Source of the DNA: Lachnospiraceae bacterium
GTDB lineage: Bacteria > Bacillota > Clostridia > Lachnospirales > Lachnospiraceae
Reading direction: 5' to 3'
Length of the DNA stretch: 40,009 nucleotides
Assembly: GCA_017518185.1 (NCBI GenBank)
Contig: JAFWWB010000056.1
Location: forward strand, 1 to 40,009
Shown: positions 11,641-40,009 of the stretch, in pieces
Layout of the letters: every line of letters starts with the position of its first letter
How positions within the stretch are numbered: the stretch's first letter is position 1
Notes under the pieces: generated by a model
The model's database searches: none
What the model was told of the DNA's origin: nothing
What the model saw: only the letters and a program-made list of their open reading frames with translations
Position numbers and translations under genes: made by a program

Positions 11641-11723
11641 ATCCGCTCTCCTGTTATCACTTGCAAGTATTTCACCTATGGTGTATTCAGCCACCTCGTT
11701 TACCCCCTCATAAAAACGTCACG

Positions 11724-17277: not shown

Positions 17278-20200
17278 TTATTTCACAGCCTTAAGTTTAT
17301 TTCCGTTCTTTTCGATGCTCAGGGAATCTCCGTTTGCGGAGCTGAGGAAGAGAAGCTTATCCCCCTTATTTCCCTGATCGTCTTTGGCAAAGATATCACC
17401 CTTGAAGCTCTTCACCGCCTTTATGGTATCACCTGCCGCATAACGCAGCGGATTGCCGTTACTGTCCCTGAGTTCCAATATAAGGCTCTTTCCCTTATAG
17501 TAAACGCCGCCGTATCCGACGTTGAGCTGACGGGAGCATAGCAGACTCTCATCCGCATTTGACACGATCCCGTAAGCCTTTACGGAGCCGTTCACTGTAA
17601 CATTGCCTTTTACAGTGAACCATCCCGAGGTGGACACGCCATCCACAGTGGTGTTTTTCAGGCTGACTCCGTTGTTCTTTGCATTTATCTTAACGTTCTT
17701 TCCTCCCGAGGAGAGATGAACGCTGTCAAATGAGGTATAGCATCCGGGGCTTACAGTCTTTGTCGAACCGCAGTCTATCTCTTTCACGCCTTTTGATCCT
17801 GTAATGTAAAGCTGCCCCTTATTGAGTGCGGGTAATGTGAGCTTTTCCACGGTAATATCCTGATTGACATAGATAAAATATTGCTTTGTTTTGTCGGCCA
17901 TGGCAGCATAAGCACAGTCAAGATTCCTGTAATATCCCATGCTTATCCACTTTTCAGCCCCTCCTTCTTCGGGGACATCCCATCTCCACAGGCTGAGAGC
18001 TTCGGCGTTCTCTGCCTTAAGCTTGTTGCCGTAGAGAAAAGCATTCATCTGCCGGCCTTCGGAATCCTTATTGCTGACATAAACATTCGCTCCGTCAAAA
18101 GCCTTCCCGGTAACTTTAAGTATCTGTGTGCCGCCGGGAACAGCCGCACCGTTCTCATAGATTATCGTAAGCTTTCCGTTAACATTCTTAACAGCAGTCT
18201 TTTTAGCATTGTCCTTCCATACATAGACAGTGGCGTCACCCACGTCCGAAATATCAGTGGAACCTCCTGTATTCAGTCTTCCGTTGAACAGACTGACCCC
18301 GCTCAGCTTTTTGGATACAGTCAGCAGCTTATCCTTTGATACGTCGACAAGAGCGAAGTTTTTTAACGTTTCCGTCTTCACGGAGCCTTCGAGGATAAGC
18401 TCCGAACTCTTCGTCCCGCTGATAGTGCCTGCGGCTGCCAGATCTTTTTTTATAGTCACCCTTCTTCCTGCGGTCACCTTGACAGAAGGCTTCTTGGAGA
18501 CTGATGAACTCACTTTGCAGTCAAGTATCAGGTTGCAGTTGGCGGTTATCGTCGGGCTCTTCAGCCTGAGCTCACCGCCGGTGATCTTAATAGTGAAATC
18601 CCCCCTGGGAGTGCTCACGGCTTTCTGCTCATCAAGTACGCTGCCGATCTCAAAGACATATTCTTTTGCGGTACTTCCGTTCTTCTGCTCCTTCTGTATG
18701 GCCGCAAAAGCCTCTTTGAGCGTCGGGTATTGCCCGCCGGCGCCTATCGATATGCCCTCCGAAGCATCCTGGGCTTTCTCTTCTGCCTTTACATACACGG
18801 AATAAACGGCTCTGGTATTCTGGTACTTTATCGTAAGCTGCTGTGTGCCTGTCTTTGTATTATCATAGCCGCTCACCATATCCGCAGTAAGCGTGATGGT
18901 AACGATCCGGCCTTCCTGATAATACAGTTCAACTTTGCCTCCCGTGAGATCCAGCTCTTCACCGAGCACATACTCTGTTTTAGAGGGTACGACGATCACT
19001 ATGCCCTCCGGAAGGGCGTCACTTTCAGCAGAATCTTTGCAATTAACAGTACAGTTTTCAGGGATAGCCGCTTCGTTCTTAAGCACTGTATCCCACTGTT
19101 GTTTTGATCCGCCAAAGGATATGGAGGCAAGAGATGTGCAGCCGGCAAAGGCATCTTTATCGATAGAGAGCAGCGTACCGTGAAGCGTAACACTCTCCAA
19201 CGCGCTGCATCCGTAAAACATCTCGCTGCCTATGGCATCGACAGCGGACTGAACATAAACATTTTTTATCTTATTATCATTCTTGAATAAAGCCTTCCCG
19301 AGACCGGTCGTCCCGGATGGGATCGTGATATCGTCCGACAGTGAAAAAGTACTGCCAAATGCGCCGTCCCCAATAGATATGAGAGAATCTGGGAGCTTTA
19401 TGCTGTTTATTTTTGCGCAGTTGAATACCGCATAAGCACCTATCTGCTTTATACCCTCAGGAAAGACGAGCTTCGTGAGGTTTTTGTTATAAATAAACGC
19501 ATAAGCGCCAATCTTTTCGGTACCTGCGGGAATGCTGTACTCCCCTTCCCTGCAGTTCGGATAATAGACCAGGGTCTTTTTATCAGCAGTGAAGAGCACG
19601 CCGTCCACGGAACAGAAAGAACTGTTTCCCTCGGCAACACTGACCGAAGTGAATTTATTACCACGGACCATTCCGTATACATCTATGGCCGTGACCGAGA
19701 CCGGTATGGTGATGTCTCCGCCCTCGCCTCCGTAGGCGGTAAGTTTCCCGTTTACTATCGTAAACTCCTGCTTTTCCTTCCAGAGAGCGTAGAGCCGGAT
19801 ATCACTCTTTACAGGCGCTGAAAAATCATAAGCTTCCGTATAGTTTTCATCTGTATACCAGCCGCCGAAATCATATCCGTTCTTAACCGGATCCTCAGGC
19901 CTTACGGCTGTTTCACCCGCCTTAACGCTCTGCGGAGTGATATCGGAGCCTTCAAAGCTTACCGTATATACGGCAGTGCTCTCAAAACTGATCTTACAGC
20001 CTGCGGGGATGCCTGCCTCCGGCTTTTCCACAGCCTCCCACTGTTCCCTGCTTCCGGTAAAACAGATCTCGGCAAGAGCCGTCATTCCCGAAAAGGCATT
20101 TTTCTTTATCTCTTTAACGCCTGCGGGGATCGTAACTTTCGTTACAGCACTGCAGTTCTCAAAAGTGCGTTCATTTATCGTTGTGATACCGGTTCCCAAA

Positions 20201-22521
20201 ACTATGGAAGTAAGTTTACTATCACCGTTAAAGGCAGCCGCTCCGAGATTCGTAAGTCCGTCAGGAAGTACCAGTGCGCCTTCCGCCGATCCGTTATAAG
20301 CCAAAGCCCAGGAACCGATATACGAGACTGTCGAAGGTATGACCAGCTTTTTTAAACTGCCGTCATTAAGTATCCCCCAGGTGCCGATCCGCTTCAGTCC
20401 TTCCGGAAGGGAAAGCTCCTTGAGCGCCCCGGTATACATGATCGCGTAATCGCCTATCTCTTCGGTACCCGCCGGAACTGTATAAGAGCTATTCTTTGAC
20501 CCTCTGGGGTAAGCGATAAGCTTCTTTTTGTCTTTTGAAAACAGTACTCCGTCAACGGCGGTAAGGTCGTTATTGCCTTTTGCCACACTTATGGAAGTGA
20601 CGGTTTTATAAGTCCCGGCATTTTTGTTCAGGAAGCTGTTGGCGTCGATACTGCGTACATCGGCCGGTATGGTGATAGCACCGCCGTTTCCTGTATATGC
20701 AGTGAGAACTCCGTCCTCGATGATGAAATACTCATCCCCCCGCACGATCTGAGTCCAGCGGGCATAGAGCTGCAGATCCTTATAAAGATAATCCCCGAAG
20801 ACAAAGGGCGCAGCATAAGACGCATCCTCATAGAAACCGCCGAAACGGTATCCTGAGTTCTCCGGTATCTCCGGTCTTTCGGAAGGCATACCCCAGATAT
20901 ATTCCTGTGTTTTGAATGCAGGGCCGCTTCCGCTTTGATAGCTCAGCTTAACCTTCCTGCCCGCGTCGGTGACTATATCATTTTCCCTGTCGGGAAGCGT
21001 GATATCCCAGGATGCATATACATCCTGAGGTCTGTGGGCGTATGTTGTCGATTCGCTTTTTCCGTCCCCGCCAAAGGTGGCCTGGCTTTTATTATGCAGG
21101 TAGCTGTTCCAGTCTATATAGTCAGATTTTTTCTCACCTGTTTTTCCTTTGTTTTTGAATTCCGAACGGCAAAAACATTCCATCCAGCAGGTATCCTGAC
21201 AATACCAGTTCCCGTATAGCAGGACGTAATTATATGCGTGATAGTATTTCCATTCCTTTTTCCCTGTTTCCTTATTGTATTCTTCTTTCTTGTCGGAGAA
21301 AATGGTAACGGTGTCAACGCCTGCCATATTGCAGAAATATGTGGTAGCCATGGCGTATCCGGTACAGACACATTTCCTGTCACAGAGAGCTCCCGCTATA
21401 GTCTGGTTCCCGTAATCCCTGACCACCTCTCCGCTTGTGTTTTTCCGCTGCGCCCCTTTATCATCCAGGCTGGGTATCCAGCCGTATTCGATCACATGGT
21501 CGCATATAAGCTCAATGATCAGATTCTCTTTGTCGAGCGGCTCTTTGACGGCATTTATCTTCGGCATCCATTCAGCCGTGATGCTCTCTATCTCATCCCT
21601 GTAGCTGTTGATCCTGGCCCTGCTCCTGCATTCCCAGCTCACCGAGAAGCCTATCCAGTCATTTTTGTATATGGCGTCTTTTAAGAAGAAATATTTCGGA
21701 TTGGAGCGCAGAAAGACAAATATCACGCGCTCACGGCTGTCCTTGCCTATCTTTGTATTATCGTATGAAACATGCCCGAAACCGTACCTTTTGCAGCCGG
21801 TATCACTTTCCGTCCCAACCTCTGCAGGCTCGGCGGAACCGTAATAGAAGTCCTCACATTCAGCCTTTAATCCATCCCACAGCGTTTTTTCGTAACTGTT
21901 CAGCTGGTTGTAGAAATAAGCCGTACTGCTGTCATATTCGTTAAAGCCTGAGGCATCCCTGTCTGCGGCGATGCCTGTATCGTCACGCTGCTCTTCCCAT
22001 CTTTCCAGATAGGCTCCGGCTTCAGCATCTGAAAGCTCGATGATACGGTTGACATATACATCCGCATCGCTGTATTCGTTGAAGAAACCGGCATCTTCTT
22101 CCTGAAGCTCATCCTCTGATGCTTCTTCTTCCTCTTCTCCGGAAGTTTCTTCAGCCGCCTCTTCGGCCTCATCACTGCATTCTTCGCCGGCTTCTGCTGC
22201 TTCGATGCCGCTATACTCTTCCTCTTCTGCTTCTTCCTCGCAGGCTTCCTCTGCTTCTTCTGCATCTTCGGGAGCAGATTCCTCCTGTTGCTCCGCAACC
22301 CCTAGCCGGGGCGGCACCTTATCCGCTTCGCGGACAAGGTCAGCGTCATCTTCGCTTTCCTCTGCCTCATCCATGGACAGAGTCTCTTCTTCCGCAGCAT
22401 CTTCTGCCGCAAAAGCACTTAAGGGAGAGGTTACCTCTCCCGTTAAAAGCGCTGCCGTCAAAACGGCACATAATAACTTTTTGATCTTCAAATCCTTCAC
22501 CTGCACATGTCTGTATTGCAC
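17278..22521 (-). CDS. Giant secreted protein with transglutaminase-like, InlB-type and LRR_5 (BspA-like) repeats
   Basis: Up to 1747 residues. Signal peptide (about 11-38, KIKKLLCAVLTAALL, SAFA-AED) and a Glu-rich segment (about 39-145) closely resemble those of the neighbouring giant. A transglutaminase-like domain (about 300-450) has C386 (VCTGYA), H428 (HAYNYV) and D443 (NWYCQD), so the Cys-His-Asp triad is present. An InlB-type repeat (about 522-590), LRR_5 block (about 600-830), second InlB-type repeat (about 850-915) and second LRR_5 block (about 920-1165) follow, then an Ig-like segment and a beta-rich C-terminus that I cannot assign. No LPXTG. The start is uncertain: the longest frame opens at GTG 22521, only about 6 nt after the predicted transcript start; no downstream start codon has ideal Shine-Dalgarno spacing. 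Confidence 0.9.
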   Translation of the reverse strand: MQYRHVQVKDLKIKKLLCAVLTAALLTGEVTSPLSAFAAEDAAEEETLSMDEAEESEDDADLVREADKVPPRLGVAEQQEESAPEDAEEAEEACEEEAEEEEYSGIEAAEAGEECSDEAEEAAEETSGEEEEEASEDELQEEDAGFFNEYSDADVYVNRIIELSDAEAGAYLERWEEQRDDTGIAADRDASGFNEYDSSTAYFYNQLNSYEKTLWDGLKAECEDFYYGSAEPAEVGTESDTGCKRYGFGHVSYDNTKIGKDSRERVIFVFLRSNPKYFFLKDAIYKNDWIGFSVSWECRSRARINSYRDEIESITAEWMPKINAVKEPLDKENLIIELICDHVIEYGWIPSLDDKGAQRKNTSGEVVRDYGNQTIAGALCDRKCVCTGYAMATTYFCNMAGVDTVTIFSDKKEEYNKETGKKEWKYYHAYNYVLLYGNWYCQDTCWMECFCRSEFKNKGKTGEKKSDYIDWNSYLHNKSQATFGGDGKSESTTYAHRPQDVYASWDITLPDRENDIVTDAGRKVKLSYQSGSGPAFKTQEYIWGMPSERPEIPENSGYRFGGFYEDASYAAPFVFGDYLYKDLQLYARWTQIVRGDEYFIIEDGVLTAYTGNGGAITIPADVRSIDANSFLNKNAGTYKTVTSISVAKGNNDLTAVDGVLFSKDKKKLIAYPRGSKNSSYTVPAGTEEIGDYAIMYTGALKELSLPEGLKRIGTWGILNDGSLKKLVIPSTVSYIGSWALAYNGSAEGALVLPDGLTNLGAAAFNGDSKLTSIVLGTGITTINERTFENCSAVTKVTIPAGVKEIKKNAFSGMTALAEICFTGSREQWEAVEKPEAGIPAGCKISFESTAVYTVSFEGSDITPQSVKAGETAVRPEDPVKNGYDFGGWYTDENYTEAYDFSAPVKSDIRLYALWKEKQEFTIVNGKLTAYGGEGGDITIPVSVTAIDVYGMVRGNKFTSVSVAEGNSSFCSVDGVLFTADKKTLVYYPNCREGEYSIPAGTEKIGAYAFIYNKNLTKLVFPEGIKQIGAYAVFNCAKINSIKLPDSLISIGDGAFGSTFSLSDDITIPSGTTGLGKALFKNDNKIKNVYVQSAVDAIGSEMFYGCSALESVTLHGTLLSIDKDAFAGCTSLASISFGGSKQQWDTVLKNEAAIPENCTVNCKDSAESDALPEGIVIVVPSKTEYVLGEELDLTGGKVELYYQEGRIVTITLTADMVSGYDNTKTGTQQLTIKYQNTRAVYSVYVKAEEKAQDASEGISIGAGGQYPTLKEAFAAIQKEQKNGSTAKEYVFEIGSVLDEQKAVSTPRGDFTIKITGGELRLKSPTITANCNLILDCKVSSSVSKKPSVKVTAGRRVTIKKDLAAAGTISGTKSSELILEGSVKTETLKNFALVDVSKDKLLTVSKKLSGVSLFNGRLNTGGSTDISDVGDATVYVWKDNAKKTAVKNVNGKLTIIYENGAAVPGGTQILKVTGKAFDGANVYVSNKDSEGRQMNAFLYGNKLKAENAEALSLWRWDVPEEGGAEKWISMGYYRNLDCAYAAMADKTKQYFIYVNQDITVEKLTLPALNKGQLYITGSKGVKEIDCGSTKTVSPGCYTSFDSVHLSSGGKNVKINAKNNGVSLKNTTVDGVSTSGWFTVKGNVTVNGSVKAYGIVSNADESLLCSRQLNVGYGGVYYKGKSLILELRDSNGNPLRYAAGDTIKAVKSFKGDIFAKDDQGNKGDKLLFLSSANGDSLSIEKNGNKLKAVK

Positions 22522-22977: not shown

Positions 22978-23916
22978 TCAATTCTTTTCCTTGAGCATCG
23001 GAACGATCTGTGAAAGCATATTGTCAATATTCTCAAAGGCCACGCTCTTTCCCGTACCAAGATCGCTGGCTTTTTCGATATGCCTCATCAATTCGCCGTA
23101 ATCCCGCTCCATATGATCCAGTGACTGTTCGATATGGTTCAGTTCACTTCCTGCACTTTCTGCAGCTTCACTGATGCCGCGCTGTACATCTTCCACTCCG
23201 CGGGCCTTTTCTATGATCATATCGAAACTTCCGTATGCCTCATCCACTCCGGAGACACTGTTTTCCATCGCTTTCTGGGAGGCACGGATACTGTCGTTGA
23301 GCTTGTCGGTCCTGACCTCCGCATCCTCAAGGAATCCGCCGACTTCGCCTACCAGCTGCTTTATCTTATCGGCCAGGTCACGCACCTCCACGGCTACGAC
23401 AGCAAATCCCTTTCCCTGCTCTCCTGCTCTGGCAGCCTCAATGGATGCGTTCAGCGCAAGTATCGTAGTCTGATTGGCGATACCGATTATCTGCTTCATA
23501 CTGCCTTCTATCTTGCCGACAGATTCCTTCAGCTCGGCAAACATTCGTTCCATTTCCAAGAACTGTGCCTGAACATCCGCAGAACCTGTTTTTAACGCCT
23601 GCATCTTTCCCTGCGCTTCACCGACAGTGGAGATTATCTCCTGCTTCACTCCGTCAAACTGATCCGCGCTGCGTCCCACATTTTCAAACACTTCACTGAA
23701 AGAACTGACCTGGGCCTTCAGCTCCTCATTGCTCTTCATGATAACATCAAAGGAATCCTGTACCTCCTTTAACTGTACCAGCGAATCAACCTCATTATCC
23801 GCCAGCTGCTGCTGATAGGATTTGATATTCTTTACGATATACTCTACCGGATGGATGTCCAGCTTTTCTTCCACTGGGGCCGCAGGTATCTCTGTTTCCT
23901 TCTTTTTCCAGAACAT
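22978..23916 (-). CDS. Soluble methyl-accepting chemotaxis-type protein
   Basis: 312 residues, no membrane segment and no periplasmic domain, so it is a cytoplasmic chemoreceptor signalling unit. Coiled-coil heptads run through most of the length. The highly conserved hairpin tip that contacts CheA and CheW is present ([24 protein letters not shown] at about 142-165, followed by [15 protein letters not shown]). The N-terminal 40 residues start MFWKKKETE and are Pro/Glu-rich. ATG 23916 is preceded by AAAGGAGAG. It lies 42 bp downstream of the FIST gene in one transcript, suggesting the FIST protein supplies the sensory input this receptor lacks. Confidence 0.93.
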
Positions 23917-23958
23917 ATCATCTCTCCTTTACGTATTCTTGCGATGTTCTTTTCTTTA

Positions 23959-25017
23959 TCATTCAAAGACGACACAAGTCATGGACTGGTTTACGAACTG
24001 ACTGTTGTAATGTTCCCCGTATCCTACAAAACCGCAGAAATTATTCAGCGTTCCCATTCTGCTTAAATAATCATCCATATCCTTATTCTGACTGAAATAT
24101 ATATAACGGAACAGACAATTGACCGAAAATACCGCGGATATGTTTTTGAAATCCCTGCGTATCTTTGAGATGGTCTCCTCCGCTATCTGGCGGTAATCCC
24201 TTATCTCCAGCATCGTAAGCACATCCGAGTCGTTGACCTGGCGGAAACATGCCAGACCGTTACCCATTACTTCCTTTATGGATACGATGCAGACATCTTC
24301 CCCGTTAAGCTTCCCAAGAGGATTTTTAAATGTCTGGGTGGAGATATCTTTCTCAGGGATCTTAAGGATATCCATATATACCTGCTTTGCAGGCTTCCCG
24401 TTAAGTTCCCCGATATAATACTTTGAGCGGTCGGTCTTTGATGCTACAAGGCGGTAATTCGCTGTCATAGGCTGATAGATGTTTTCCTTATAGACCTCAA
24501 CCTTTCCGCTCAGATTGCGGATAATGGCAAATACACAGGCATCGGTATACACCTTACCATTGCAGGACACCTTGCCCTGATCGCCTGTTCCACCCATCAG
24601 CCTTACCCTCTTGCTCCCCAGATAGCTGTAGATGGTGGTGAGCATGCAGGCATCATTTCCGGTACAGAAATCTATGCATACGGTATCATTGCTGCCGGGA
24701 CGGACCTTTGATACAGCCGCTTCCACCCGTCCTATATACTTTGCAGGCATTACGGATACCTGTTCTATGACATCGGCAGCCGCTTCCACACCTTCGGTGT
24801 ATGCAGTCACGCCTACTCCCTTTTCCGTAACCTGACGGTCATAGCACATATCGACCACACCTATACTCGGTACTCCCGGATATAGTTCTTCAAGCTCCTC
24901 CACATGTTTATCAAACTGGTCGGGATTTGACATAAGTATCAGAAGTTTAGGCGAATTCAACCCCCGTACCGCCTCTGAAAGGTTCCCGGTCCTGCTAGCT
25001 CCATAGAATTGTTTCAT
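23959..25017 (-). CDS. FIST-domain sensory protein
   Basis: 352 residues. FIST_N and FIST_C domains bind small ligands in signal transduction. The N-terminal half contains GVTAYTEG and MGGTGDQGK; the C-terminal half has FSVNCLFRYIYF and the typical ending GFVGYGEHYNSQFVNQS before TCVVFE. No membrane segment or output domain is fused to it, so the output is presumably passed on through the MCP encoded 42 bp downstream. ATG 25017 has an excellent AAAGGAGG site. Own promoter at 25048-25075. Ligand not deducible; amino acids have been proposed for the family. Confidence 0.9.
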   Translation of the reverse strand: MKQFYGASRTGNLSEAVRGLNSPKLLILMSNPDQFDKHVEELEELYPGVPSIGVVDMCYDRQVTEKGVGVTAYTEGVEAAADVIEQVSVMPAKYIGRVEAAVSKVRPGSNDTVCIDFCTGNDACMLTTIYSYLGSKRVRLMGGTGDQGKVSCNGKVYTDACVFAIIRNLSGKVEVYKENIYQPMTANYRLVASKTDRSKYYIGELNGKPAKQVYMDILKIPEKDISTQTFKNPLGKLNGEDVCIVSIKEVMGNGLACFRQVNDSDVLTMLEIRDYRQIAEETISKIRRDFKNISAVFSVNCLFRYIYFSQNKDMDDYLSRMGTLNNFCGFVGYGEHYNSQFVNQSMTCVVFE

Positions 25018-29771: not shown

Positions 29772-31283
29772 TTATTTTTTCGGTTCCGCCGGTATAGAGC
29801 CTGTAAGGCTCCTGTCTATGTCCATGGTGCCTGTAAAGTCCACCAGTCCTATCTGCAGTGTACTGTCTCCCAGAAGCGCCGCAAAAAGAGGCGAGAGCTT
29901 CTGGTTATCCACACTCTCAAGCGACGCCTCTACCCGTATGGGCGTTCCGTCCGCCAGGGAAAGATAGCGTGTCGCCTTAACCTTTATGGCGGAGAAGATC
30001 ATCACGGGTTCTTCCAGAGCCAGCATATCCGGAATTATCTTTACGTAATCATTTCCGTCGCGTATCTCACTGACTATGCGGCACTCTTCTCCTCCCGCGG
30101 TTCCGAGCCCCACATCCTCTCCGCTGGAAGCTATATTCTTATAATCCGATACCATAAGCTCCACGGTATCCTTAAGGCTCTGGCCGTAAAGTATATCATC
30201 GTGCCAGCCGCTGTCATCCCAGCGCAGATACCTGTATACGTCATTGCCCTTCTGTATCAGCAGTATGTCTCCGCTGGAGCCCATGGTCTTTCCGAATACA
30301 TCACAGCCGAAGGAATAGCATACAAAGAGCTGTTCCTTATCGGCATCATAGTCAAATTCAACCTCCGCATCAACGGGGACCACCACTGACAGACCCAGCA
30401 TTCCCGCGCTGCACTTGAGCACCGCATTTCCTTTAGCAGTAAATGACCCCAGCTCCTCCTCCGGCTCTTCCGGATCCTTAAGCGCCTCAAGTCCTGCGAC
30501 AGCCTCTTCATTCTCCGGATCCAGCACGGTAACCTTGGTGTAGAGTATGCGGGCCATGGTCTTGTCTTCCCGTTCCACGGCCTCACCTGCCCGTCCGAGA
30601 TAAAGCTCGATGAGCCTGGTCTTAAATGAGGAAGTATCTGACATGACATTAAGGGGCTTATTGATCGCAGCCTCCAGCATATCACAGGCATCTTTCTGTT
30701 TCCCGTCAGCGAGCAGCGCTTCCACCAGACGTTCTGTGGTCTCCTTCCATATACGGGAGTCTTCGCTCAGATATTTATCATCTTCAGCCTCACCGATAAA
30801 GGCGGAGAGCTTCTCCTCAGGCAGGTTTTTTATCTCATCCATGACCCTGTCGTAAGATCCGTCGATATAGAAATCCCTCAGTCTTCCCTGGTAGAATTCC
30901 CATAAAAGACCTGCTATCTCCTTATCCCCGGTCTTCTCAAGGCCTTTTTCCAGGATCTTGATGCCTTTCCCGAATTCTTTTTCATCCTTGTAGATCCCTC
31001 CTATTGAAAGATAGGCGTCCACGTCTTTGTCATCCCTGTCCAGTATCTTGTAATAAAGCTCGATGGCCGCGTCTGACTTGCCCTTTTCAAGCTTATTCTC
31101 CGCCATATGCCTGCGTATCCAGATATAGGAGGAGTCATTCTCAAATACAAAGAACCAGGTCAGCAGCCCGATAAGAGCTGCCACAACAACGCAGATAAGT
31201 ATGATGATTATCTTTTTTCCTCTGTTTTCCTCCGGTACGCGGCTCCGCTCCGGATCCGGGAACTCTTCGTGTTTCTTTTTCAT
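29772..31283 (-). CDS. Membrane-anchored TPR protein of unknown function
   Basis: 503 residues. A short charged cytoplasmic tail (1-22, ending RGKK) is followed by one membrane segment (about 24-47, IIIILICVVVAALIGLLTWFFVF), placing the rest outside. Residues about 55-275 contain TPR-like helical pairs (AIELYYKILDRDDKDVDAYLSIGGIY is typical). From about 285 the protein is beta-rich (KGNAVLKCSAGMLGL, then DVYRYLRWDD) with no domain I recognise. ATG 31283 lies 4 bp after the mscS stop, so it is co-translated with the channel and the branching-enzyme-like gene. Possibly a cell-envelope assembly factor, but this is a guess from topology. Confidence 0.8.
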   Translation of the reverse strand: MKKKHEEFPDPERSRVPEENRGKKIIIILICVVVAALIGLLTWFFVFENDSSYIWIRRHMAENKLEKGKSDAAIELYYKILDRDDKDVDAYLSIGGIYKDEKEFGKGIKILEKGLEKTGDKEIAGLLWEFYQGRLRDFYIDGSYDRVMDEIKNLPEEKLSAFIGEAEDDKYLSEDSRIWKETTERLVEALLADGKQKDACDMLEAAINKPLNVMSDTSSFKTRLIELYLGRAGEAVEREDKTMARILYTKVTVLDPENEEAVAGLEALKDPEEPEEELGSFTAKGNAVLKCSAGMLGLSVVVPVDAEVEFDYDADKEQLFVCYSFGCDVFGKTMGSSGDILLIQKGNDVYRYLRWDDSGWHDDILYGQSLKDTVELMVSDYKNIASSGEDVGLGTAGGEECRIVSEIRDGNDYVKIIPDMLALEEPVMIFSAIKVKATRYLSLADGTPIRVEASLESVDNQKLSPLFAALLGDSTLQIGLVDFTGTMDIDRSLTGSIPAEPKK

Positions 31284-31286
31284 CTT

Positions 31287-32183
31287 TTATACCGTATGCA
31301 CATCCAGCTGGGGGAAAGGTATCTCTATGCCGTTAGCTTCAAAGCTGGCCTTGATCCTTTCCGTGTAATTCCACTTAACGTCGAAATAATCCTCGTTCTT
31401 TACATAGGCTCTGATGCCCACCGTCACCTGGGAAGAATCCAGGGAATCCACATAGACCACCACGCCCTCCTTGGAGAGTATGCGCTCGTCCTCCTTTGCT
31501 GCTTCACGCATGAGTTCCTTTGCTTTTGCCACATCGGAACCATAGGAAATGCCGTAGAGCAGGATGAGCCTGCGCCGGGGTGTCTCGTTCACGTTGGTAA
31601 GCGAAGTATTTGCCAGTGTTCCGTTAGGAAGCACCACCGTCTTTTCGTCTATGGTCCTGAGCTTAGTATAGAAAAGCCCTATCTCAGTAACCGTCCCTTC
31701 GTTTCCCTTGCTGTCCTCGATGATATAATCACCTATCTTGAAGGGCTTCAGGATAAGGAGCAGCACACCGCCGGTGATATTGGAAAGGCTGCCCTGCATT
31801 GCCAGGGCGATGGTCACGCCTGCGCTGGTGAACACAGCCAGGAAGGAGGTGGTCTCCACCCCGAAATATGAGGCTATCCACACGAAGAGCAGTCCGTAGA
31901 GAGCAACCTTAACGAGTGAATCCAGAAAGCCCTGTATCCCCAGGTCTACCCTGGCCTTTTCAAGGGACTTCCGTATAACCTTCCTGAGTATGTTTATCAG
32001 CTTGCTTCCGATAAAGAGTATTATCAGAGCAACGATAAGCCTTATGCCGAAGGCTATGAGCTTCTCCGGCAGGCCTTTCATAAAGCTCTGGAAGGCAGTC
32101 AGGTTCTCGTTTACTTCAACGAGTCCGGTTTCCGCCGCCTTTACCAGTACATTTTCCGATGCGGTATCAAGACTTATGCTCAT
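31287..32183 (-). CDS. mscS: Small-conductance mechanosensitive channel (MscS family)
   Basis: Homoheptameric membrane channel that opens on hypo-osmotic stress. 298 residues, the short MscS type. Three membrane segments: about 35-60 (LIAFGIRLIVALIILFIG), about 85-107, and TM3 about 110-150 with the Gly/Ala-rich pore helix (GVTIALAMQGSLSNITGGVLLL). The beta domain follows (GDYIIEDSKGNEGTVTEIGLFYT, then VVLPNGTLANTSLTNV). Starts at ATG 32183 with a 4-bp ATGA overlap on the preceding gene. Confidence 0.94.
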   Translation of the reverse strand: MSISLDTASENVLVKAAETGLVEVNENLTAFQSFMKGLPEKLIAFGIRLIVALIILFIGSKLINILRKVIRKSLEKARVDLGIQGFLDSLVKVALYGLLFVWIASYFGVETTSFLAVFTSAGVTIALAMQGSLSNITGGVLLLILKPFKIGDYIIEDSKGNEGTVTEIGLFYTKLRTIDEKTVVLPNGTLANTSLTNVNETPRRRLILLYGISYGSDVAKAKELMREAAKEDERILSKEGVVVYVDSLDSSQVTVGIRAYVKNEDYFDVKWNYTERIKASFEANGIEIPFPQLDVHTV

Positions 32184-34549
32184 TCTTTCTTACCGGCTGC
32201 CTTTTCAGCAGCTGCCAGTCTCTTGTCAAGTTCTTCCTTAAGCTCAGCCCTTATTCGGCTTCGCTCCTCATGAAGCTTCTTCCGGGCCTTTTCCTCTTCC
32301 CTGAGCTTCTTTTCACGCTCCTTGCGGCGCCTGTCTATCTCGGCTTTTTCTTCACCGCTGTAGGGTATGTACTGGTAGATCTGCATTGAAAGAGGCGCAA
32401 GCGTGAGCTTTACATGTCTCTGATCCCCTTCCCTTGCAGCAGCCGTAGGACCGTCTGCCGGGCCGCTCAGTACGCTTGAGAAGACCATCCTGTACTTTCC
32501 GTCTTCAGGAACTCTTATCTCGTATTTCTCATATTCCTTATTTGCAAAATTGAATACGCAGAGCAGATAGGCCTTTGCGTCCTTTCTTGCGAAAGCCAGG
32601 ACATTATCCTCTGCCGCATCCTCAAGCAGCCATTCGAAGCCCTCCGCATCGTCGTCACCGGCATAAAGCGCGGGATACTTTGCATAAAACGCATTGAGCG
32701 CCTTTATATAGGCCCTGAACACCTCGGTGGAAAGCTCAGCCTTCTCTGTGACATTGCTTAAGTCAAGCTGTTCAAAGGCAGCCCTGTCTGCATATTCCTG
32801 TCCTGCGATAATGGATTTCTTTCCGGTATGAAGCATCTGCATTCCGAAGAAGAGCTTTAAGTTCGCCCACTTCTCACTCTCATTTCCGAACATGCGCTCA
32901 TAAAGCCCGCCCTGTCCGAAATTGATATTGACCTGTCCAAGAGGCATGATGTAATGCTCGCAGTACTGGTAAACCGAACTGTTGGTGAGCTGGTTATGGA
33001 AGGATCTTCTGGAAATGGGATCCCTTGAAAGATAATCTATGAGCTCACCGGTAAAGTGATAATCGGTGACATAGTCAAAGCCCAGGCCGCCGTTATCAAA
33101 CCCTGTAACATTGGCGAATTCACCTCTCATGGAGGTTATTGAAAGTACCTTCTCCTTATGGAGCATGGTGTTCATCTCCCTGAAGAAGGAGATCGCCTCC
33201 AGATGCTCCACGCTGCCGTAAAGATTTGTCACCCACTCACCGGGCTGTCTGTAATAATCCAGATAGAGTATCGCAGAAAGCTCAAGGGTGTTGAAACCGT
33301 CTATATGATATACCTCATGCCAGAAATTAAGGGCCGAGAGCAGGTAGGTCCAAACCTCGGGCCTGGAGAAATCGAACATGAGCTGTCCGGTCCTGGGATC
33401 CCTCCCCCTTCTGGGGTCAGCGTATTCGTAAAGGGCAGTTCCGTCAAAGCCCCCGAGGCCGTAGGAAACATTGGAAAAATCCGCAGGAGGCCACTCGAGC
33501 AGGACTCCCAGGCCTGCCTTGTGGAAGGCATCTATGAGGCACATGTAATCCTTAGGCTTTCCGAAACGTGAAGTGGCCGCAAAGAAGAAAGCGGTATGAT
33601 AGCCTTCGTCCGCATCCTCCGGATACTCCATGAGGGGCAGCAGCTCCACATGGGTATAGCCCATATTCTTTATATATGACGCGAGGGCAGACGCTTCGGT
33701 CTTATTCCCGGGAAGACCGTTTCCCAGCCTTGATACAGGCAGGGTATAAATGCTCATGGGTGACTTGTGAAGATCGTCTTTCTTTTTATCCATCCAGGCG
33801 CTGTCACCCCATTTATAATTTGCCGCCTGCGTGACCACGCTGTTGCACTCAGGCGCAGTCTGCTGGTAAAAGCTGTAGGGATCGGCTTTCTTCACAAGGT
33901 TTCCGCCCTTCATCAGCACCTCATAGGAATAAAGCTCCCCTTCCTCTATACCGGGAATAAAGAGCTCGAATATCCCGCTCTCCTCCAGACGGTTCATGGG
34001 ATTCTCCAGACCGTTCCAGGAATTGAAGGCGCCTATGACCGATACCCTTCTGGCTTCGGGAGCCCATACCCTGAAGACGCAGCCTCGCACGCCGGCCACG
34101 GTCTTCTTGTGGCAGCCCATATATTCGTAAGCCTTTCTCTCCGCTCCGGAGGAGAAACGCTTTTCTTCCGCATCGGTAAGGAGAACGCATGTGTTATAAA
34201 GCTCTCTTATATCGCGGCTTACGGTCTCCTTCTTTTTGCCCTCGGAGGGAACCGGGTAGGTCACATGATAACGGTAGTCAGTCCTGTTGGTGCCGGGAAG
34301 CAGCGCCGCAAAAAAGCCTGCCTCGTCAGCCATTTCCATGGGGACCTCTTCCTTTACGGTCTTGCCCTTGCCGCTGTCAGCCGCATCGATATAAAGAGTT
34401 GCGGCCGCTGCCCCGGGAAAGAACGCCTGCACCAGGGTCTGCCTGCCGGAGTTCTTCGCTCCCAGGAATTTTCCCGGATGGTCGCACTCTCCGTAGACCA
34501 CCTCTTCGATGGCCGCCCAGTCCATTAATGAATACAGTTTCTTGTTCAT
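32180..34549 (-). CDS. GH13_9 (glycogen branching enzyme-like) protein lacking catalytic residues
   Basis: 789 residues with GlgB layout: N1-type domain (about 23-100, HPGKFLGA and QAFFPGAAAATLYI), CBM48-like domain (about 155-235), (beta/alpha)8 barrel (about 260-615) and a C-terminal beta domain to about 730. The scaffold is well kept (VELLPLMEYPEDAD, HIDG, LYLDYYRQPGEWVTNLYG), but key residues are replaced. The nucleophile Asp of RVD is L422 (HIDGFNTLEL); the acid/base Glu of AEES is S473/M474 (ITSMRGEF); the HD of region IV is Q539-V540 (PLGQVN); the region I His is D357 (EWPPADF). It is therefore probably a glucan-binding pseudoenzyme. A charged helix (about 733-789) follows. Start at ATG 34549, GGAGG upstream; the longer frame is repeat-derived. 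Confidence 0.85.
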   Translation of the reverse strand: MNKKLYSLMDWAAIEEVVYGECDHPGKFLGAKNSGRQTLVQAFFPGAAAATLYIDAADSGKGKTVKEEVPMEMADEAGFFAALLPGTNRTDYRYHVTYPVPSEGKKKETVSRDIRELYNTCVLLTDAEEKRFSSGAERKAYEYMGCHKKTVAGVRGCVFRVWAPEARRVSVIGAFNSWNGLENPMNRLEESGIFELFIPGIEEGELYSYEVLMKGGNLVKKADPYSFYQQTAPECNSVVTQAANYKWGDSAWMDKKKDDLHKSPMSIYTLPVSRLGNGLPGNKTEASALASYIKNMGYTHVELLPLMEYPEDADEGYHTAFFFAATSRFGKPKDYMCLIDAFHKAGLGVLLEWPPADFSNVSYGLGGFDGTALYEYADPRRGRDPRTGQLMFDFSRPEVWTYLLSALNFWHEVYHIDGFNTLELSAILYLDYYRQPGEWVTNLYGSVEHLEAISFFREMNTMLHKEKVLSITSMRGEFANVTGFDNGGLGFDYVTDYHFTGELIDYLSRDPISRRSFHNQLTNSSVYQYCEHYIMPLGQVNINFGQGGLYERMFGNESEKWANLKLFFGMQMLHTGKKSIIAGQEYADRAAFEQLDLSNVTEKAELSTEVFRAYIKALNAFYAKYPALYAGDDDAEGFEWLLEDAAEDNVLAFARKDAKAYLLCVFNFANKEYEKYEIRVPEDGKYRMVFSSVLSGPADGPTAAAREGDQRHVKLTLAPLSMQIYQYIPYSGEEKAEIDRRRKEREKKLREEEKARKKLHEERSRIRAELKEELDKRLAAAEKAAGKKE

Positions 34550-34567: not shown

Positions 34568-34683
34568 AAGATTCCTCGACTTCGTCCGCTCCGCGGACTG
34601 CGCTCGGAATGACATTATTCTCCGCTGTTTTGCTATGTCATTTCGAGCGGAGCGAGCAACGCGAGCGCAGTCGAGAAATCCTT
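34568..34683. repeat. GC-rich inverted-repeat element, copy B
   Basis: Minus strand: AAGGATTTCTCGACTGCG ... GCTCGAAATGACA, a short centre, then TGTCATTCCGAGCGCAG ... GTCGAGGAATCTTA. Same termini and inner ATGACA/TGTCAT pairing as copy A. It starts directly at the stop codon of the DUF1015 gene and ends 19 nt before the start of the branching-enzyme-like gene. It supplies an ATG (34615) that falsely extends that gene by 22 codons. Confidence 0.8.
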
Positions 34684-35914
34684 AAATCTCGTGTATGAAA
34701 AATCCGCTCCTCAGCTTCGGTTCAAACCAGGTGGACTTGGGAGGCATGAGCTCCCCTGCATCCGCCACCGCAAAAAGCTCCGCTATGGAAGTGGGATACA
34801 TGGCAAATGCTACTCCGCCCGCGGCTGCAGCCCTGTCGGACAGCTCCTTAAGCCCGCGTATACCGCCTATGAATTCTATCCTCTTGTCGGTCCTGGGATC
34901 CTCTATACCGAGTATGGGTCCCAGCACTCTGTCCTGCAGTATATATACGTCAAGTCCCTTAACGGGATCAGAGTTCTTAAACTTATCCTTAAGTTTGAGC
35001 CTCCACCAGCTGCCGTCCAGGAACATACCTGCCTCACCTTTTTCAGTGGGCTTGTAAGCAGCCTTTCCGTGAAGGTCCAGCTCATAGAACTCACTTATCT
35101 TATCCCTTAATACATCAGCTGTCATGCCGTTTAAGTCAAGCACCAGACGGTTGTAGTCCATTATCATAAGCTCCTCATCCGGGAAGATAACGGAAAGGAA
35201 GTAATTGTACTCCTCATCTCCCGTATGGGCGGGATTTGCCGCCCTGCGCTGCTGACCCACACGTACGGCTGACGCGCAGCGGTGATGTCCGTCCGCGATA
35301 TACAGAGGCATATCGGAAAACTCCCTGCTTATAACAGCCATATCCGCCTCGCTGTCTATGATGAAAGCGCGGTGTCTTATGCCGTCAGATGAGGTGATAT
35401 CATAAAGGGCCTCTCCCTGCTTTACCCGATCCGTAAGCTCCTTAAGAGCCGGCTTCTGCCTGTAGGCAAGGAAGATGGGGCCCGTCTGGGCGCTCAGTGT
35501 ATCCACGTGCCTGATACGGTCCTGCTCCTTGTCTGCCCTGGTATTCTCGTGCTTCTTGATGATGCCCTTCTCGTAATCTTCTATGGATGCGCAGCCTACT
35601 ATACCGGTCTGCACCCTGCCGTCCATGGTAAGCTCATAGATATAGAAGCATGGCTTTTTCTCCCTGATGAGGTCTCCGGCTTCTATACGTTTTCCGAGCA
35701 GCTCCGCCGCCTTTTCATAAACGCAGTCGGCATAGGTATCCACGCTGTCATCAAAGGAAGTCTCTGCCCTGTCTATAGCCAGGAAGGAACCGGGGTTCTT
35801 CTTAACCTCCGCCTTTGCCTCACTCCTGGAGTACACGTCATAGGGCAGCGCCGCAAAGCCTGCCGCCTTCTCCTTGATCGGTCTTAATGCTCTGAAAGGT
35901 CTTATATCAGCCAT
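34682..35914 (-). CDS. DUF1015 family protein
   Basis: 410 residues, full length for this conserved family of unknown function. Family blocks: RPFRALRP at the N-terminus, then LPYDVYSRSEA, KKHENTRADKEQDRIRH (about 118-134), YIADGHHRCASA (about 206-217), EFIGG and the closing MPPKSTWFEPKLRSGFF. Soluble, no signal peptide. In clostridia the family is often found near serA/serC, which are not seen here. ATG 35914 follows GAGAGGAGAG. The frame stays open 45 codons upstream to the stop of the next gene, but that extension has no family match. The biochemical role is not known to me. Confidence 0.93.
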   Translation of the reverse strand: MADIRPFRALRPIKEKAAGFAALPYDVYSRSEAKAEVKKNPGSFLAIDRAETSFDDSVDTYADCVYEKAAELLGKRIEAGDLIREKKPCFYIYELTMDGRVQTGIVGCASIEDYEKGIIKKHENTRADKEQDRIRHVDTLSAQTGPIFLAYRQKPALKELTDRVKQGEALYDITSSDGIRHRAFIIDSEADMAVISREFSDMPLYIADGHHRCASAVRVGQQRRAANPAHTGDEEYNYFLSVIFPDEELMIMDYNRLVLDLNGMTADVLRDKISEFYELDLHGKAAYKPTEKGEAGMFLDGSWWRLKLKDKFKNSDPVKGLDVYILQDRVLGPILGIEDPRTDKRIEFIGGIRGLKELSDRAAAAGGVAFAMYPTSIAELFAVADAGELMPPKSTWFEPKLRSGFFIHEI

Positions 35915-36997: not shown

Positions 36998-39900
36998 CTA
37001 TTCTTTCTCCATTATAACAAGATAATCTTTTCCGCCCGCAACAACCTGTATGTCCATATATCGAGTAAAATAACCTTCTTTTTCGATTTTGGCAGTATAC
37101 GCCCCTTGCGGTACATCAAAATCTACCCATCCTCTGACATATCCACCACCGCTACCATTAACCTCTATCACCGGGGCGCTAAAATCTGTTGCCCCCCAAC
37201 CATAATACAAACAGATTTTTGAATAATCTATATAATTTCCGTTCTCGTCTTCAACTTTGAATCTTACTCTTTGAATTGTATCATTTGAATATGGCTCAAG
37301 CTTGATATCAAGAAGATATTCTTTCCCTGCCTCTATTCCACCATGAAATATTCCCCTGTTTGATTGATACCAACCAACACTTGCAATTTTTCCTGCTGTA
37401 TTATTATAATCAACTAGTAAAAAATAGCAGCCCGGTTCAAGAGCGCAAATAACTTTGCCATTAATATCAGTTTTTACTTTTTTACAAAACGTATATGGAT
37501 CAACTGCTTCATACAGAAGTATAAATGACATAGTCATTTTCCCCACATCATCCATATGGCATACAAGTACATCCGCCCCCGAAATTGGAACATTGTTTAC
37601 GTCTGTTACACATAGAGCTAACACCCCAACATTTTGTTTTTTCTCCAAAACAACATCTTCACTTCGGGTTATTTCATAATTCACTACCTTTAGGTTTTCT
37701 ATATTTGCCTCCTCATATACGTCATTCCATAGAAATTTCAAATCGTATTTCCCGGATGGAAGAATCACCTCATAATTGCCTTCAGAATCGGTATAGACAC
37801 TGGTCAAATAATTACCATTAGAATAAACCTGCACTTCAGCATTATCAACAAATTCTTTAATAAGTTGTCCCGACGAATCTAATTTACCTGTATTATAGTA
37901 CACTACACCCATGATAAATCCATCAGCATTTCCATGTATTTCATTATAGTTATTTGCATAATTATTAGAAATGGTTTCTATTACCTTTGCAACATTTAGC
38001 ACGGGAATACCATCTACCCTCTGAGAATAACTATTAACAATATAATTTTTTATTTCCGTAGCCTTCAACTCGGGATATAAAGAATAAACCAAACCTGCAC
38101 ACCCTGCTACATAAGGGGCAGCCTGACTAGTGCCGTCCATCTCCATATAACCACCAATTACACTTGAAAAAATACCTTTTCCCGGGGCCAGAATATCCAC
38201 CCTACTTCCTCTCTCACTAAAAGGACATTGATTAAGCGAAATGCCTACTGTATTTTCACCATTTCTTATTACTTTATATTTCAACGCACCTACACAAACG
38301 ATATGGTCACGCAATCTTGAACTGTAGTTCAATTCGTTATTATACATTGCATCAGCATCCCGCAACCCAAAATTTTTAAACTCATAGAATGCATATGCAC
38401 CATCTTCATCTTTATACATATTTTTATATGTATGTCCGTCACTACATAAAAATTTATAATTATCCAACCAAGCTGCATTATAACCATATAATTCTGCACA
38501 ATAAAATCCGTTACCTATAGCCAATTCAAGATCTTTTGAATAAAGCCATGTATACGGGCTATAATTAGTTTCATCCACATCCCAATTTCCATTTCCTGCA
38601 CAAGAAACTATTAGGAAGTCATACCCTTTATCTAACAATCGCAATAATAAATCCTCAATTTCCAGACTTCTCTTCTGAAAACCAAGCAATACATTAGAGC
38701 AATTCAAACAATCCGCAACATCATTTCCTCGAAAAATAGCCGCTTTATCATTATAATTTGCCTGACTGTAATTAATGACTTTAACATTATTCCCAATCAA
38801 CAATGCAAAGCCACACTTTACTTTAAACAAATGATGTATCGATTCAGCCATCTGTTGATATGTTATTGTGGAGATATCAAAAGAACCATCACCTTTTTTA
38901 TAAATATCCTTACTACCATTTAATGAGAAACTATATAAATCACTTTTGATAGATATACCGCTTATCCCAACACCATTATTGAATCCGGCAGCAATTATTC
39001 CCGAAACGTGTGTACCATGATTTGAGGGAATATTATTCCAACATTTTTTATATTCTAAATCTTCATGATTATCATCAACCCCCTCATCTATCAAACCTAT
39101 TCTTACTGTTTTTAACCTACTTGTATCAACATCATCACTTGTGCAACTCTCATCTCGTATTATTTCAGCATTAATAAGTGCCCCCTCAAAATCTATTGCT
39201 TCTATCCCCCAATTATTTCCACTAGGATTATCTGTGTTCCATTCATCTCCCCAGTCAAAAAATGAACACTCATCAGTTTTATCTGAGGAATTAAAGCAAT
39301 TACTTGTTACTGATACATAGTTATATGAAACATGATCTACTAATTCTGACGTACTAAATGCCAAAAAAGCACTATTCAATTCTTCATTATTTAATTCATA
39401 AATTGACTCTATCTGATAATCACCTGTCAATTCAATTGCACCAACAATACGAAAATCGAACATATTTATCTGAGCTTCAAGTATATCTTTAGTAACGCCC
39501 TCATTAACTGTAAGCAGTAATTGATCTTTTACACAAAGCAATCCCTCGCAATTCAAAGTGAGTTCTTCATCATATTCAATATCTTTAAAATACACTTCCC
39601 CTATATCTTCAGTATATTCAGATGACGTTGTGTCCATATGTATAATAAATGGAGACGGATCCGGCTTCTTTATTCTATTCCAGACATCGACATTATCACT
39701 CGCCAAAACTTGAGTTACTGTCACATTCTGTATATAGGGGGCCCCAGTATCACAAAGAAATCCTATTGTCCAACTCCCCCCTATATCGATGTTTTGCGCA
39801 TATTCCGGATTACGAATAAAATAATGGTTGCCTTCGTGGCTCTCTATCGCTCCACCCCATAATTCAACAATGTCCAGCTCACTGTCAAACTCAATCATCC

Positions 39901-40009
39901 AGTCTTCAATTGCCGATTCTGATGTGTTCGTGATAATGATCTGCGCAATACCACCATTTTCCCACTCATCAGAAGAAAATAAACTCACCTCACATTCTGA
40001 TATATCCAC
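36998..40009 (-). CDS. Large subtilase with N-terminal CBM2-like domain and C-terminal CNA_B-like repeats (5' end outside window)
   Basis: 1003 residues visible; the reading frame is still open at the right edge (GTG at 40009 is probably internal). Positions count from the edge. A CBM2-like or cell-surface Ig-like domain (about 3-105, with W37, W51 and W80), a subtilase propeptide-like region (about 155-235), and an S8 serine peptidase domain with D308 (LIDEG), H331 (SNHGTHVSG), oxyanion N472 (SCAGN) and S628 (DGTSQAAPYVAG). Then three beta-sandwich repeats of the CNA_B/carboxypeptidase-regulatory type (about 700-775, 780-890, 895-1003). Presumably secreted; its signal peptide would be in the missing part. 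Substrate unknown. AT-rich like the lipoprotein gene next to it. Confidence 0.88.
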   Translation of the reverse strand: MDISECEVSLFSSDEWENGGIAQIIITNTSESAIEDWMIEFDSELDIVELWGGAIESHEGNHYFIRNPEYAQNIDIGGSWTIGFLCDTGAPYIQNVTVTQVLASDNVDVWNRIKKPDPSPFIIHMDTTSSEYTEDIGEVYFKDIEYDEELTLNCEGLLCVKDQLLLTVNEGVTKDILEAQINMFDFRIVGAIELTGDYQIESIYELNNEELNSAFLAFSTSELVDHVSYNYVSVTSNCFNSSDKTDECSFFDWGDEWNTDNPSGNNWGIEAIDFEGALINAEIIRDESCTSDDVDTSRLKTVRIGLIDEGVDDNHEDLEYKKCWNNIPSNHGTHVSGIIAAGFNNGVGISGISIKSDLYSFSLNGSKDIYKKGDGSFDISTITYQQMAESIHHLFKVKCGFALLIGNNVKVINYSQANYNDKAAIFRGNDVADCLNCSNVLLGFQKRSLEIEDLLLRLLDKGYDFLIVSCAGNGNWDVDETNYSPYTWLYSKDLELAIGNGFYCAELYGYNAAWLDNYKFLCSDGHTYKNMYKDEDGAYAFYEFKNFGLRDADAMYNNELNYSSRLRDHIVCVGALKYKVIRNGENTVGISLNQCPFSERGSRVDILAPGKGIFSSVIGGYMEMDGTSQAAPYVAGCAGLVYSLYPELKATEIKNYIVNSYSQRVDGIPVLNVAKVIETISNNYANNYNEIHGNADGFIMGVVYYNTGKLDSSGQLIKEFVDNAEVQVYSNGNYLTSVYTDSEGNYEVILPSGKYDLKFLWNDVYEEANIENLKVVNYEITRSEDVVLEKKQNVGVLALCVTDVNNVPISGADVLVCHMDDVGKMTMSFILLYEAVDPYTFCKKVKTDINGKVICALEPGCYFLLVDYNNTAGKIASVGWYQSNRGIFHGGIEAGKEYLLDIKLEPYSNDTIQRVRFKVEDENGNYIDYSKICLYYGWGATDFSAPVIEVNGSGGGYVRGWVDFDVPQGAYTAKIEKEGYFTRYMDIQVVAGGKDYLVIMEKE

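Follow-up and report, generated by a model that had tools for sequence, protein, structure and literature searches.

A predicted pseudoenzyme of the Type-1 glycogen branching enzyme family is kept by selection in a genus of Lachnospiraceae

Why would a rumen bacterium keep a branching enzyme that no longer has its catalytic residues? The question is raised by a gene in the window analyzed here, a 40,009-nucleotide stretch of DNA from a Lachnospiraceae bacterium (assembly GCA_017518185.1, contig JAFWWB010000056.1). The gene, an uninterrupted frame on the reverse strand, encodes a 789-residue homologue of the glycogen branching enzyme GlgB. A preliminary description, made from the letters of the window, held that this protein retains the full GlgB architecture with all of its catalytic residues replaced. 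We favor, at a probability of roughly 0.55, the explanation that it is a Type-1 GlgB that no longer catalyzes branching and is retained for a non-catalytic task that its active ancestors already performed. We place it in subfamily GH13_9, a number taken from PMC6243121 and the preliminary description.

The architecture is that of a branching enzyme. Four of four Pfam profiles scored above their cut-offs (GlgB_N, residues 11-100; CBM_48, residues 144-226; Alpha-amylase; Alpha-amylase_C), as did the NCBIfam branching enzyme model TIGR01515 (492.6 bits against a cut-off of 463.95), supporting the N1, CBM48, barrel and C domains described earlier. Two further GlgB models, PRK05402 and PRK12313, matched the protein below their own cut-offs. 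The top PDB sequence match was 3k1d, which we take to be M. tuberculosis GlgB; it aligned to residues 15-691, and the motifs were free of gaps. The AlphaFold model of the protein (mean pLDDT 90, pTM 0.87) folds the charged C-terminal stretch into one 55-residue helix (732-786), in agreement with the helix that had been proposed. Among the Foldseek matches listed for this model, 50 of 50 PDB structures were branching enzymes, with 3k1d at a TM-score of 0.81 by query length. Faecalibacterium branching enzymes were among these structures, and our literature search found no paper on them. Type-1 enzymes carry an N1 domain of about 100 residues before CBM48 (PMC6339891), and the window protein likewise has N1 ahead of its CBM48.

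We mapped the active site by aligning the protein with MAFFT to E. coli K-12 GlgB, whose sequence was taken from the genome record. The GlgB triad consists of an Asp nucleophile, a Glu acid/base and an Asp stabilizer. Where this Asp/Glu/Asp set is expected of an active branching enzyme (EC 2.4.1.18), the window protein has L422, S473 and V540, corresponding to E. coli D405, E458 and D526. Three other active-site positions are replaced as well: H525 by Q539, H340 by D357 and R403 by N420. At every position named in the preliminary description, the mapping returned the same residue. Misalignment of the motifs was ruled out because the 3k1d match agrees with three MAFFT alignments.

The loss extends across the genus. 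Among 34 further genomes of this genus, a search found orthologues (42-58% identity) in 32. The two genomes in which none was found are 81% and 67% complete, and the gene is present in 27 of 27 genomes that are at least 85% complete. Together with the window protein, these orthologues make up a genus set of 33 proteins. Asp is found in none of the 33 at the nucleophile column (L 13, C 6, T 4, S 4, Q 2, N 2, K 1, M 1) and in none at the D526 column. The acid/base Glu is kept in 14 and gone from 19, and the region IV His is kept in 17; the catalytic losses in the genus probably came stepwise. In the tree described below, which holds 15 of the 33 members, the genus proteins form a single clade (SH-aLRT 100), the separate dead clade that had been envisaged.

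These proteins also appear to be maintained. In eight close genus pairs with dS below 1, dN/dS was 0.030-0.083, and flanking genes gave values of the same order; the other eight of the 16 pairs have dS above 1, are saturated (dN/dS 0.035-0.18) and were set aside. All 33 members have open frames. A pseudogene or frameshift was ruled out by the open frames and the dN/dS of 0.03-0.08, and the selection that had been read from the intact frame is borne out by the eight unsaturated pairs. With the triad broken, purifying selection and a single clade, these sequence data confirm the window protein as a real, selected pseudoenzyme. We infer loss of activity from loss of the residues.

Is this loss confined to one genus? 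We collected 120 loci of the long-form family from 117 genomes, picked from a listing of at least 299 genomes. This set is a sample and not a census; the first 20 loci were chosen nearly all by score and the remainder by hand down the listing. These long Lachnospiraceae GlgB proteins are the nearest relatives of the window protein and share its locus type, domains, N-terminal arm and charged tail. By its length, the 824-residue glgB2 product of Butyrivibrio hungatei (PMC5716241) would be of this type as well. The states of the six catalytic-site residues were read off a MAFFT alignment, with D-to-E counted as loss. Unlike in the window protein, all six residues are kept in 102 of the 120 sampled loci. 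At least one triad acid is lost in the other 18, which for short we call dead: by our reading of the states, two or more are lost in 12 of them, all three in 5 and just one in six.

We then placed these losses on a tree of 96 rows, comprising 15 of the 33 genus members, 20 dead or partly dead proteins (the 18 plus L055 and L065), 56 of the 102 intact proteins and 5 outgroups. Motif columns were removed, and the tree was built by a quick method whose starred branches are less trustworthy where rows are long. The dead proteins from outside the genus are scattered among intact ones. The tree needs about 12 changes, 8 of them forced by the starred branches alone (L055 and L065 included); what it counts are changes, which we take as losses. 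A tree constrained to unite all dead proteins (the 15 genus rows, the 18 and L055) in a single clade was rejected (delta lnL 517, p-AU 5e-105). Most dead proteins sit on longer terminal branches than most intact ones, and the long-branch weakness of this test would rather draw dead proteins together. The alignment and tree thus indicate several separate losses of catalytic residues in the family. This recurrence is the surprising part of our results and is not visible from the window alone.

The position that follows the lost nucleophile (423 in the window protein) carries an acidic residue in all 33 genus members (D 28, E 5) and in 8 of the 18 other dead proteins, and it is Ala (101) or Ser (1) in the 102 intact proteins. 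These counts invite the reading that the protein is still an enzyme, with a nucleophile shifted by one residue and an altered chemistry. We consider this very improbable given that the acid/base Glu is gone from 19 genus members and the region IV Asp from all 33. In addition, residue 423 lies directly N-terminal to a helix (424-428) in the AlphaFold model. In the ten remaining dead proteins, this position mostly holds helix-starting residues, with Ser, Gly or Asn in nine cases and Met in one. Because the helix follows and the other dead proteins mostly have such residues, the acid is better explained as a structural repair, a predicted helix cap, than as a moved nucleophile.

If catalysis is gone, which parts of the protein remain constrained? 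Part-wise identities were compared between the genus and intact proteins of other genera, two sets that differ in breadth; loci L275-L279 and L282 were omitted from the 102 intact ones. In the intact proteins (n = 96), conservation is highest in the barrel, with a mean pairwise identity of 0.73 against 0.56 for the N-terminal arm. In the dead clade of the genus, the arm has the highest identity of the six parts (0.78) and the barrel stands at 0.50. When the 18 other dead proteins were compared with their nearest intact relatives, and intact proteins with their intact neighbors, mean identities were 0.56 against 0.81 for the barrel, 0.65 against 0.76 for CBM48, 0.59 against 0.67 for the C domain, 0.67 against 0.72 for the arm, 0.49 against 0.49 for N1 and 0.34 against 0.35 for the tail. 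These data indicate that after the loss, constraint shifts away from the barrel and toward N1 and the N-terminal arm.

A tail motif, LKxELxxKI, recurs among 26 of the 33 genus members, 4 of the 18 other dead proteins and 20 of the 96 intact ones, compared with a mean of 0.1-0.3 in shuffled tails. This pattern was widened after the tails had been inspected; the narrower original gave 26 of 33, 2 of 18 and 13 of 102. Of the four dead matches, the one in L273 falls where the tail begins. The idea of one tail motif shared by every protein was rejected, as only a subset carries it. Many dead proteins have a Lys- or Glu/Lys-rich tail, and so do many intact ones. Across Lachnospiraceae Type-1 GlgB proteins (L163-L282), tails range from 0 to 270 residues and are highly variable between genera; many are Lys/Ala-rich and, in our own description, histone H1-like, or coiled-coil-like.

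The long end branches of most dead proteins, the greater divergence of their barrels and the scatter of losses over the family are what would be expected of a drifting relic, a gene that is being lost after the arrival of a second GlgB has let its catalysis decay neutrally. This account is improbable overall and already hard to hold for the genus, where close pairs show low dN/dS, all 33 frames are open, every genome at or above 85% completeness retains the gene and the arm is more conserved than among intact proteins of other genera, with the difference in breadth between these sets as stated above.

Both the relic and the platform reading start from a second GlgB. The genome of the window encodes a short Type-2 GlgB on contig C58 with intact catalytic motifs, and a third GlgB-like gene of about 626 residues on contig C70 (L034), also with intact motifs. 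A true glgB elsewhere in the genome, which the preliminary description had proposed to look for, is thus present. The C-domain match of L034 falls below its cut-off, and similar matches of 39-43% occur in other genomes of the family. The window genome also has glgA, glgD and two glgP genes above cut-off. A short GlgB was found in 18 of 18 genomes with dead proteins, with HRDEHD at the six sites in all; in G067 it is split over two frame pieces. Genomes with no match to another GlgB number 16 of 99 among those with an intact long form and 0 of 18 among those with a dead one, at match thresholds of E<=1e-60 and E<=1e-40, respectively.

We next asked whether the protein could still hold glucan, using the list of E. 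coli GlgB glucan sites in Table 1 of PMC10254366. Of the 33 genus members, 28 keep the CBM48 site IV Trp (W178) and all keep the C-domain site VI Trp (W640), and W640 may be structural. Sites II, III, V and X are missing in intact relatives too. The kept W178 and W640 fit glucan binding by the window protein. Binding by itself could suffice if the dead groove held donor chains and so limited the short GlgB, as a competitive inhibitor or chain-length ruler with no protein contact. The Y300 position is aromatic in all 33 genus members (Y 26, F 7) and an FDGTxLYE stretch is well conserved in the genus alignment, as this alternative would predict; it leaves the conservation of the N-terminal arm and the tail motif unexplained, and we regard it as quite improbable.

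The surroundings of the gene bear on its origin. A DUF1015 gene precedes glgB in 23 of 23 genus loci read, and an mscS gene follows it in 21 of the 23 and is lacking at two. Many Lachnospiraceae GlgB genes whose products have intact motifs also lie in the order DUF1015-glgB-mscS: among the 102 intact loci sampled, 86 have a same-strand mscS downstream (median gap 8 bp) and 36 a same-strand DUF1015 gene. At the 18 other dead loci, read over stretches of limited length, mscS was found at 9. Because the glgB-mscS pairing is common with intact GlgB, it is not tied to the loss of catalysis. As the same gene order flanks intact-motif proteins, the window protein is best read as a positional orthologue of the active Type-1 enzyme and not as a recent paralogue. 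Across the family sample, glgB and mscS form a tight gene pair.

The ATGA overlap between glgB and the mscS-like gene, given in the preliminary description, is present. The neighborhood it set out is conserved as far as mscS goes, and the DUF1015 gene joins it. The TPR (tetratricopeptide repeat) gene was rejected as a conserved partner, being a local pairing detected at 10 of 23 genus loci. The link between glycogen, turgor and envelope that had been drawn from these neighbors is weak, since the mscS pairing is as much a feature of intact loci and the TPR gene is not widely shared.

The start of the gene is supported by a ribosome-binding site, GGAGGG, 7 nt 5' of the ATG at 34549, and by the MNKKLY start, which is common to 29 of 30 aligned genus proteins; the exception (L026) lies at a contig start. 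Between genes, at 34570-34690 and around 29661, we observed stretches that resemble dispersed repeats (ctcgactgcgctcg...gctccgctcgaaatgaca), one of which lengthens the glgB open reading frame 5' of the likely start. The features of the locus are collected in Table 1.

Table 1. Parts of the glgB homologue and its neighboring genes in the window
Feature	Position	Strand	Basis
Catalytically dead (predicted) Type-1 GlgB homologue, 789 aa	32180..34549	-	Profiles, alignments, residue mapping
N-terminal arm, residues 1-30, MNKKLYxLMDWAxIEEVVYGECD...	34460..34549	-	Genus alignment, part-wise identity
N1 domain, residues 31-117	34199..34459	-	Pfam GlgB_N, part-wise identity
CBM48, residues 140-230, including W178 = E. 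coli W159 (glucan site IV)	33860..34132	-	Pfam, residue mapping
GH13 barrel, about residues 262-620, replaced catalytic residues D357/N420/L422/S473/Q539/V540	32690..33766	-	Alignment to 3k1d, E. coli mapping
C-terminal beta domain, residues 636-728, including W640 = E. coli W628 (glucan site VI)	32366..32644	-	Pfam, residue mapping
Charged C-terminal tail, residues 729-789, LKEELDKRL motif, modelled helix 732-786	32183..32365	-	AlphaFold model, tail comparison
DUF1015 gene, conserved upstream neighbor	34682..35914	-	Neighborhood comparison
MscS-type mechanosensitive channel gene, conserved downstream neighbor, 4-nt overlap with glgB stop	31287..32183	-	Neighborhood comparison
TPR protein, N-terminal hydrophobic stretch	29772..31283	-	Detected in 10/23 genus loci

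Elsewhere in the window, we noted a subtilase that carries a CBM2 at its N terminus and a carboxypeptidase-regulatory-like domain (36998-40009), a giant protein of 1832 residues with CAP and Big_2 domains (11766-17264) and, next to it, one of 1747 residues with BspA-type LRR, Flg_new and Big_3 domains (17278-22521). Adjoining genes for an MCP signaling domain protein and a FIST-domain protein (22978-25017) are a possible sensory pair, and two DegV-family genes lie side by side (9887-11694).

The closest precedents are the plant proteins ISA2 and MKIP1. ISA2 (GH13_11) is described as a GH13 paralogue without catalytic residues that is kept as a subunit affecting glucan structure (PMC12510319). 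According to the same source, its catalytic residues, including the nucleophile, are replaced clade-wide, it is kept by selection and an active paralogue is present. The genus proteins resemble it in combining clade-wide loss with selection, the nucleophile being absent from 33 of 33 and dN/dS being low. ISA2 differs in belonging to a debranching subfamily and in that ISA1-ISA2 binding is experimental, whereas the partner of the window protein is putative; furthermore, in Lachnospiraceae GlgB the loss recurs in several lineages. MKIP1, or Arabidopsis BE1, is a class III branching enzyme described as dead and recruited away from glucans (PMC13172542). The account given there matches the window protein in the CBM, barrel and C domain, two replaced triad Asp residues, a charged region and constraint. 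It differs in that MKIP1 is a plant protein with about 30% identity to canonical branching enzymes that acts in intron splicing with MatK (PMC13172542). In MKIP1 the charged region follows the CBM, whereas in the window protein, a bacterial GH13_9 member, the charged helix is C-terminal; the charged insertion between CBM and barrel that marks class III is absent from the window protein.

MKIP1, with its charged region and a CBM turned to another use, is a model for a rival explanation, that the window protein is a neofunctionalized pseudoenzyme outside glycogen, whose fold serves only as a protein or nucleic-acid platform perhaps tied to mscS or DUF1015. The strong glgB-mscS linkage in intact and genus loci, the Lys/Ala-rich tails of many intact relatives and the loss of the site I Trp in the genus are consistent with such a role. 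However, most of the sampled family keeps its catalytic set, Trp is for the most part retained at the sites on CBM48 and the C domain, and mscS is missing from two genus loci and was found at just half of the other dead loci over the stretches read. We consider this explanation rather unlikely.

Among bacterial proteins, GlgD offers a further comparison, being a regulatory subunit of GlgC (PMC10395257). It resembles the proposed role in that it is a regulatory subunit in bacterial glycogen synthesis, as described there, and glgD is present in the window genome; it differs in that it belongs to another enzyme family and its partner is known. Duplication or multiple copies of glgB are discussed in PMC11046441, PMC10395257 and PMC4236520, the excerpts of which mention no non-catalytic bacterial clade; PMC11046441 also mentions one chlamydial fusion of GlgA and GlgB whose branching domain is inactive. 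In excerpts from full-text searches of the open-licence PMC library aimed at such a protein, we recognized no case of a non-catalytic bacterial GlgB, which is no proof of absence.

Several observations weigh against a Type-1 GlgB retained for a non-catalytic, glycogen-related job. Some of the dead proteins may retain activity, because six of the 18 lost one residue and the sole triad change in L190 is a mild D-to-E. The association between loss and owning a second GlgB runs in the expected direction and is not significant (Fisher p = 0.13). Five of the 33 genus members lack W178; the site I Trp (W586), which 100 of the 102 intact proteins and 10 of the 18 other dead ones possess, is found in none of the 33, and few genus members keep the aromatics of sites VII and VIII. 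The low identity of the barrel could also be plain relaxation. Finally, the tail is 2-31 residues long in 4 of the 18 other dead proteins, so it is not needed everywhere.

How, then, might a dead branching enzyme remain useful? In the explanation we favor, the active ancestor, besides branching, would have had another role that needs no catalysis and rests on parts outside the barrel. Once a second GlgB covered branching, the chemistry of the barrel would be free to be lost and the platform role would retain the gene. The window protein would still hold glycogen through its CBM48 and C-domain sites, and its N-terminal arm or N1, with the charged C-terminal helix, would bind a partner. The likeliest partner would be the active short GlgB, a Type-2 enzyme without N1, or another glycogen enzyme, and the window protein would act as a scaffold or regulatory subunit that sets where branching happens. 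N1 has been linked to chain transfer (PMC6339891). Because of this link and because the backup enzyme lacks N1, it is an attractive idea that a separate protein might provide the N1 platform to it. The odds seem to us about even for a broader form of the explanation, in which Lachnospiraceae Type-1 GlgB is a two-job protein whose platform of arm, N1 and tail keeps the gene through some 8-12 losses, with only the platform remaining in the genus of the window.

Non-catalytic GH13 proteins are already known in plants, and by its sequence the bacterial case would be new as a variant. The window protein also carries a warning for annotation, as TIGR01515 passes it as a branching enzyme. The role of N1 in bacterial GlgB is described as unsettled (PMC6339891). 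If the explanation we favor is true, the non-catalytic GH13 proteins of plants would have their counterpart in bacteria, and a function so far hidden in Type-1 branching enzymes would become testable: the catalytic residues have repeatedly been lost while N1 and the arm were left, and therefore mutants could separate the two functions.

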